DNA of 45,762 nucleotides, taken from positions 1-45,762 of the forward strand of contig CALWGM010000137.1 of NCBI GenBank assembly GCA_944380065.1, in the 5' to 3' direction. The DNA comes from an uncultured Lachnospiraceae bacterium (lineage in GTDB: Bacteria > Bacillota > Clostridia > Lachnospirales > Lachnospiraceae). Shown piece by piece: positions 9,082 through 9,558 of the stretch; position 1 is the stretch's first letter, and each line of letters opens with the position of its first letter. The notes beneath the pieces were generated by a model, which saw only the letters and a program-made list of their open reading frames with translations, was not told where the DNA came from and made no database searches. The position numbers and the translations under genes were made by a program.

Positions 9082-9164
9082 AAAAGACGGGAGAGCCAGA
9101 GAGAGAAGAGTTTTCTGAATTTTTTGACAATAGAAAAAGATATAAAAAAATTTCCAGAAAAGTA

Positions 9165-9193
9165 TTGACAAATCCCGGGCGGTGCAGTATTAT
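9165..9193 (+). promoter_or_regulatory. Strong sigma-A promoter of the noncoding transcript
   Basis: A consensus TTGACA (9165-9170) is followed after 17 bases by TATTAT (9188-9193); TATAAT overlaps at 9191-9196. Transcription should start near 9200. It is among the best promoters in the window, yet no protein gene follows for 450 bases. Confidence 0.75.
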
Positions 9194-9229
9194 AATACCA
9201 ACAAGAGAAACGAACTACTAACACAAATA

Positions 9230-9427
9230 CAGGAAGTTTATTCCAGAGAGACAAGAGAGAACGTTAAGTTAATTCGATTCGATTGCACGGTAATTTTATA
9301 TGGAGGGTAGTCCAATGGGAAGATAAGTTGCCACCTAAAATTTTATAACAGGAGGTACAGTCCAACGTACACGTAAGTAAACTACTCAAAACCAAATCTA
9401 CAACAGGAGGTACGGTCCAAAGAAAAC
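9230..9427 (+). repeat. Four imperfect ~50-70 base repeats inside the noncoding RNA
   Basis: The GGA cores are at 9232, 9302, 9351 and 9406, spaced 70, 49 and 55 bases. Between the conserved cores the sequence is AT-rich and not conserved, unlike CRISPR, where repeats are near identical and spacers uniform. The first module lacks the GGAGG extension but has TTAAG at 9264-9268. Confidence 0.7.
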
Positions 9428-9491
9428 TTAAGATTAACTTCATAATCTGAGAAAGCGAAGGTGTAGAGCATGAAATTACTGGAAATTCATT

Positions 9492-9537
9492 GATAGCTCG
9501 TCCGAGAGAAAAAAGAATCGGGCGAGCTATTCATTTT
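9492..9537 (+). terminator. Rho-independent terminator of the noncoding transcript
   Basis: A stem of about 13 pairs (atagctcg at 9493-9500 with cgagctat at 9523-9530, extended inward by a G-T pair and ccga/tcgg) is followed by TTCATTTTGT. Confidence 0.85.
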
Positions 9538-9558
9538 GTCTGAAAATGTAAAAAAATC

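Follow-up and report, generated by a model that had tools for sequence, protein, structure and literature searches.

The window, by which we mean the whole stretch of 45,762 nucleotides from an uncultured Lachnospiraceae bacterium that was analysed, carries between a radical-SAM gene and an APH-family gene a short unit with repeated GGA-bearing elements. The question raised by this locus is what kind of gene the unit is and what its repeats are made for. An earlier inspection of the letters (the sequence-only reading) had described a near-consensus promoter, a ~335-base transcript with no credible ORF, four GGA-N6/7-TCCA modules and a strong terminal hairpin, and had proposed either a CsrA sponge or a ribosome decoy.

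The unit in the window and its repeated elements

The features in and upstream of the unit are the following.

9109..9123, unstranded: CodY-like box AGTTTTCTGAATTTT, 12/15 matches, 56 bp 5' of the -35 hexamer; weak alone
9149..9163, unstranded: CodY-like box AATTTCCAGAAAAGT, 13/15 matches, directly 5' of the -35 hexamer
9165..9193, + strand: promoter TTGACA-17-TATTAT, read from the sequence, in a layout that recurs at many related loci
9232..9244, + strand: 5' hairpin GGAA-GUUUA-UUCC, z -1.9, previously counted as the first module
9302..9327, + strand: start-codon module GGAGG-GUAGUCCA-AUG(9315) GGA AGA UAA, mini-ORF MGR-stop, read from the sequence
9350..9377, + strand: start-less module AGGAGGUACAGUCCA-ACG-UAC-ACG-UAAG; profile match 9343-9380, E 7e-9, the module being a row in the profile's own training set
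9405..9432, + strand: start-less module AGGAGGUACGGUCCA-AAG-AAA-ACU-UAAG; profile match 9399-9435, E 4e-9, likewise a training row
9457..9493, + strand: final Shine-Dalgarno GAAGGUG (9457-9463) and 7-codon ORF MKLLEIH-stop (9470-9493)
9492..9538, + strand: intrinsic terminator from folding, stem-loop 9492-9531 with a moderately U-rich tail

The promoter is present as described, with a -35 TTGACA at 9165-9170, a -10 TATTAT at 9188-9193, a 17-nt spacer and 11 of 12 consensus matches. Transcription is predicted to start near 9200, giving a predicted transcript of 335 nt that agrees with the length proposed earlier. The terminator hairpin, folded over 9485-9540, has -22.7 kcal/mol and a z of -5.5 (0/200 shuffles equal), and its moderately U-rich tail reads UCAUUUUG. 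A simple terminator scan that allows loops of up to 8 nt left this hairpin out, we suppose because its loop is 12 nt. A second promoter-like sequence, TTGACA-16-AAAAAT, lies at 9124-9151, 41 bp 5' of the main promoter.

GGA-N6/7-TCCA elements start at 9232, 9302, 9351 and 9406, and the last three are followed by N9-TAAG. In 3000 dinucleotide shuffles of 9200-9537 there were never more than two elements and never more than one with TAAG; on the + strand of the whole window, TAAG follows only these 3 of 15 elements. All four elements are thus where they had been reported, but the one at 9232 differs in kind from the last three modules, being a separate small hairpin. It is weak alone, since 12/200 shuffles fold equally well; a hairpin RRAA-RUUUA-UUYC is found in 7 loci, 36-38 nt 3' of the -10, with GGAA/UUCC or GAAA/UUUC pairing. 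The 9302 module is matched by the profile only in part (9309-9329, E 0.004). The statement that there is no credible ORF did not hold, as it had overlooked short frames, namely AUG GGA AGA UAA at 9315-9326 and the 7-codon ORF at 9470-9493. A hairpin AAUGAA...UUCAUU in place of the final ORF was considered and rejected (9440-9500, z +1.0, 175/200 shuffles equal).

The module class, its reading frames and its distribution

By DNA search, 14 of 98 genomes matched, among them the window's own: there is one full-length relative (L009, 90% identity), several partial relatives within the genus and the family, and a few apparently chance matches. Placing the relatives side by side demonstrated that the last three window elements are one conserved module, GAGGUAYRGUCC, conserved far above its surroundings. 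The module carries a Shine-Dalgarno sequence, the last G of GAGG lying nine nt 5' of the start position, and modules resemble ribosome-binding sites that lead into reading frames. The N9-TAAG of the sequence-only reading is the in-frame stop of the module. The terminator-bounded unit with repeats that this reading proposed is supported by the relatives; it had overlooked this meaning of N9-TAAG, as well as the AUG present in most related modules and the final mini-ORF abutting the terminator.

To describe the frames, we used 170 distinct modules from 50 array loci. At the start position there is AUG in 103, UUG in 6 and GUG in 2, while 59 are start-less; the AUG share is biased, as the search seed itself contained ATG, and among the 110 modules that do not match this seed 43 have AUG, 6 UUG and 2 GUG. 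A stop within four codons occurs in frame in 68 of the 103 AUG modules (shuffle mean 27.7, max 42) versus 24 and 19 in the two alternative frames, and in 32 of the 43 AUG modules outside the seed versus 10 and 11. All 103 AUG frames close within 11 codons, whereas 35 and 27 of the other frames stay open over the 60 nt examined. The start-less modules tend to keep a stop in the same frame (42 of 59, versus 20 and 20), and 56 of them lack ATG, GTG and TTG within 18 nt after GAGG. A later set of 44 further modules from 18 loci, partly found by a profile trained on the first set, gave a modest contrast for stops in start-codon modules (12 of 24 in frame versus 6 and 7), together with 0 frames open beyond 60 nt versus 6 and 5; its start-less modules have the stop in frame in 18 of 20 versus 4 and 4.

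Both module types occur together in 32 of the 50 arrays. The spacing between modules is 50-59 nt in 66 of 147 cases, a distance that would leave neighbouring ribosomes enough room, and 108 of 202 sites open ORFs of 2 or 3 codons only. Second codons are mixed among the 111 start-codon modules (AAA 20, TAC 14, GAT 9, AGA 7 and others). The base 5' of GAGG is G in 38% of these and in 78% of the 59 start-less modules.

We asked what else the conserved AYRGUCC spacer might do. The pairing tests used a 16S tail from outside the window's assembly, in which no 16S gene was found. Spacer-16S pairing beats the module's own shuffles in 154 of 170 modules; permuted consensus sequences pair equally well in 123/1680 and 119/1120 cases, and 56% of start-codon modules have A where G would pair with the 16S tail. 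Extended pairing with 16S is not claimed, and by the permutation test it fails to explain the conserved spacer. Predicted accessibility of GAGGU is not higher than that of other GG sites (0.41 versus 0.39), with 35% of 120 modules predicted to be more than half unpaired. A conserved global structure found no support in folding: the mean fold z without the terminator is -0.5 in 30 RNAs, with five below -2 and the lowest at -5.4.

The exact pattern GAGGTAYRGTCCAA has 30 matches in 13 of the 98 genomes, many of them clustered, against 4 for the pattern read backwards. In the window's own genome it occurs on either strand at the window locus only. The same genome holds two more divergent units, L298 (G000:C138 near 4509) and L299 (G000:C108 near 2040), both with a promoter-like sequence and then GGAGGAACRGUCCAUUGGGAAAAURA; L299 seems to close with MRIKRK-stop 5' of a hairpin. 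In larger samples, 299 genomes were drawn from the family, which is taken as Lachnospiraceae; the exact pattern occurs in 47 of them versus 9 for the backward control, and in 2 of 299 genomes of the phylum sample, including the window's own, versus 2 for the control. The module profile matches 160 of the 299 family genomes at E of 0.01 or better and 75 (hand count) at 1e-4 or better, some of the searched genomes having also given training rows. In the phylum sample the profile matches 7 of 299 genomes, two of them among the four that belong to the family; outside the family it matches 5 of 295, all with E between 0.003 and 0.01, and among the 98 relatives it matches 1 of 38 from other families of the order at E of 0.01 or better. 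These E-values are rough, and single weak matches may be ordinary ribosome-binding sites, as at L301. Module-like ribosome-binding sites, possibly by chance, were seen before an aminotransferase class-V gene (L134:1616-1631) and before a ferredoxin-type gene (L301 near 484).

Among the matches listed, which include single chance ones in unrelated bacteria, named records with units include Eubacterium ramulus (L109), Roseburia faecis (L128), Anaerostipes sp. (L067) and Mediterraneibacter MAGs. A phage element was considered and rejected: a viral scan, with the exact 16-base pattern only, gave 60 stretches, one of which holds two matches, 1.4 kb apart. An Rfam search of the window and 14 related loci gave no match above the gathering threshold and three weak matches far below it, so the absence of a known RNA family stands, and among the papers listed by literature searches nothing resembled a module-array RNA. 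In C. phytofermentans, a Lachnospiraceae species, the start site reported as strongest on both cellulose and corn stover lies downstream of cphy2658 and belongs to a unit without an explanation that is probably non-coding (PMC5171806). This unit could be a member of the module class.

Unit ends, neighbouring genes and CodY-like boxes

Units were defined as clusters, or single exact modules, with a script-called promoter, and they carry promoters resembling TTGACA-17-TANNNT. In 63 of 77 units with a detected terminator (recount with another de-duplication; 62 of 76 in the first count), a last Shine-Dalgarno and short ORF end at most 12 nt from the start of the terminator stem, versus a mean of 6.9 and a maximum of 12 when the upstream sequence is shuffled. 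The end of the stop codon falls at -2 to +6 of the stem start in 49 of the 77 (shuffle mean 3.0, max 6); in the window, the stop codon of MKLLEIH extends into the stem. The remaining 14 have a terminator without a final ORF, and for another 35 units no terminator was detected by the script. The final peptides form subgroups (MKLxxIH, MDxxx, MLDIKxEQK and MGxExxDExS), and residue 3 is always leucine in 11 distinct MKLxxIH-like ORFs, encoded by TTA, CTT or CTC. Selection on the peptides is not proven, because third codon positions hold no excess of variation (7, 5 and 7 extra letters at the three positions for MKLxxIH and 5, 5 and 5 for MDxxx). A mini-ORF MK(K)[GS]RxP-stop was seen behind the modules in 6 loci (L012, L013, L015, L192, L195 and L303); the proline before its stop might slow termination.

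From the -35 to the terminator stem, 62 units span 121-703 nt. By a mechanical ORF count, corrected for the window, the next gene is on the same strand in 35, convergent in 26 and absent in 1. In the window, the APH-family phosphotransferase gene follows the unit on the + strand; an antisense ORF there has no family. Pfam domains over the cut-off were found in 15 of the 26 convergent ORFs, all of different families, and in 9 of 10 same-strand genes scanned, of mixed families with only a YhgA-like transposase seen twice (L029, L195). An attenuator or leader of a downstream gene was rejected, as no co-oriented common gene is found in the 62 units; the downstream genes vary and are often convergent, hence the unit is no leader and is predicted to be a free-standing RNA gene. 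L303 (G040:C6) holds a tandem pair of complete units; a promoter, modules, a final ORF and a terminator are present in both.

Upstream of the promoters we scored the 15-position CodY box consensus AATTTTCWGAAAATT. Boxes with at least 12 of 15 matches were found at 54 of 94 unit promoters versus 8 of 48 other promoters (shuffle mean 6.6, max 13), the controls being less AT-rich (0.66 versus 0.77) and including only 17 AT-rich promoters, 3 of which reach 12 matches. With a threshold of 13 matches and positions limited to -95 to -35, the counts are 23 of 94 versus 0 of 48. Measured from the -35 hexamer, boxes lie most often at -46/-47, -55/-56 and -77 to -79; those near -28 and at -16 to -18 might be A-tracts. 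The boxes also tend to follow one another roughly by a helical turn, about 10 bp, when counted from the -35. In the window, a further 12/15 match at 9118-9132 overlaps the distal box, and the box at 9149..9163 may alternatively belong to an A-rich UP element. The window's own genome encodes CodY (CodY equivalog), and transcription of the unit is probably set by this nutrient regulator.

Readings of the unit and known systems

The modules, their frames, the final ORF at the terminator, the distribution and the lack of a conserved neighbour are direct observations on the genomes. Given the module design, ribosomes are the likely partner, and the reading we prefer, though we put it at somewhat less than an even chance, is a CodY-linked RNA whose docking sites and mini-ORFs engage ribosomes. 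The unremarkable predicted accessibility of GAGGU and the AYRGUCC spacer, for which 16S pairing does not account, count against it. Such an RNA would present a row of strong ribosome-binding sites. Those with AUG (or GUG, UUG) would start mini-ORFs only a few codons long and release ribosomes at once, and the start-less ones could only dock a 30S subunit; at the 3' end a further site would open a short ORF, its stop codon merged with the terminator stem. Several 30S or 70S particles on one short transcript could act as a sink or buffer for initiation, which would require high abundance, and the loaded transcript would also be shielded from RNases. It is possible, though we doubt it more than the engagement itself, that the CodY-linked transcript sets translation capacity, with several ribosomes loaded on the array of AUG-less docking and start-stop sites tying ribosome availability to the nutrient state. 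Titration of ribosomes as the purpose, rather than sensing, is the least certain part. The ribosome decoy suggested at the outset comes close to this reading, as the modules resemble ribosome-binding sites, and may hold. Transcription, ribosome binding and CodY binding are what we infer here from sequence.

Sensing would mean that the passage of ribosomes across modules and final ORF determines terminator formation or RNA lifetime, the RNA reporting initiation capacity or a charged tRNA. We consider this unlikely: the final ORF does end at the stem in most units, and some final peptides are alike within subgroups, as with the constant leucine of the MKLxxIH type, but read-through would reach no common gene, the downstream genes differing and many being convergent, and the peptides differ between subgroups. 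Equally unlikely in our estimate is a sponge for an RNA-binding protein or trans-acting RNA that reads GAGGUAYRGUCC at ribosome-binding sites, with ribosomes as competitors. Conservation covers AYRGUCC, which is more than a Shine-Dalgarno needs, and Y and R both vary as wobble pairing would permit; against this, the in-frame stops point to translation, and an exact complementary RNA is not encoded elsewhere in the assembly, because exact GAGGTAYRGTCCAA is confined to the window locus. As for the protein proposed earlier, a search for CsrA found none in the window's own genome (95.7% complete) and none in the 20 genus genomes G000-G019 (73-99% complete), whereas 51 of the 98 genomes have it. 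A repeated ANGGA motif is not conserved either, and GGA is not the conserved core, because G precedes GAGG in so few of the start-codon modules; the CsrA sponge was therefore set aside.

Two further readings seem improbable to us. A growth-slowing RNA of the CreT kind would use its mini-ORFs to sequester initiator or elongator tRNA in the form of peptidyl-tRNA; a strong Shine-Dalgarno, a mini-ORF and a stem-loop behind it are found in both, according to the CreT reports (PMC8501985, PMC10097628), but second codons here are mixed, so that no single tRNA would be targeted. The unit might also be a small-peptide mRNA whose product is the final peptide of 5-11 codons, the modules only stabilising the transcript. 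The likeness of peptides within subgroups and the recurrence of MK(K)[GS]RxP-stop would fit; the peptides are nevertheless unrelated between subgroups while the modules stay constant, their variation lacks a third-position bias, and more than half of the sites give ORFs of only 2 or 3 codons.

The reading of a CodY-linked, ribosome-engaging RNA matters because the module profile matches about half of the sampled family genomes, yet the class is without an Rfam family, and the parts of the unit imply ribosomes themselves as the partner. If true, a regulatory RNA of a new kind would be present across a large gut-bacterial family, and ribosome titration, start-codon-free docking and a CodY link to translation would become testable. 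To our knowledge, no known sRNA class uses ribosomes as its partner in array form. CsrB/RsmZ sponge RNAs are free-standing and carry repeated GGA-bearing modules, as this RNA does, but here the core is GAGGU...UCC with reading frames, in a genus in which CsrA was not found. Leader-peptide attenuators have a short ORF adjoining a terminator, a trait shared by the present units, which differ in having no common downstream gene and an array of further mini-ORFs. In STAB-SD elements of cryIIIA-type leaders, a strong Shine-Dalgarno, even a start-less one, stabilises the mRNA, according to a review (PMC3997798); in sequence, 56 of our 59 start-less modules are such Shine-Dalgarno sites without a start codon, which may bind 30S, but STAB-SD belongs to the 5' leader of an mRNA that encodes a protein, whereas here several sites stand in one free-standing unit, interspersed with AUG sites. 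The CreT RNAs of CRISPR-linked CreTA act as RNA and combine a Shine-Dalgarno, a mini-ORF and a stem-loop in the same order as here (PMC10097628, PMC8501985), but with a single mini-ORF beside cas genes and, in archaeal cases, rare codons, in contrast to the mixed-codon arrays of the present units. An array of start-less and mini-ORF sites within one free-standing unit, as the sequences suggest, would match neither STAB-SD nor CreT.
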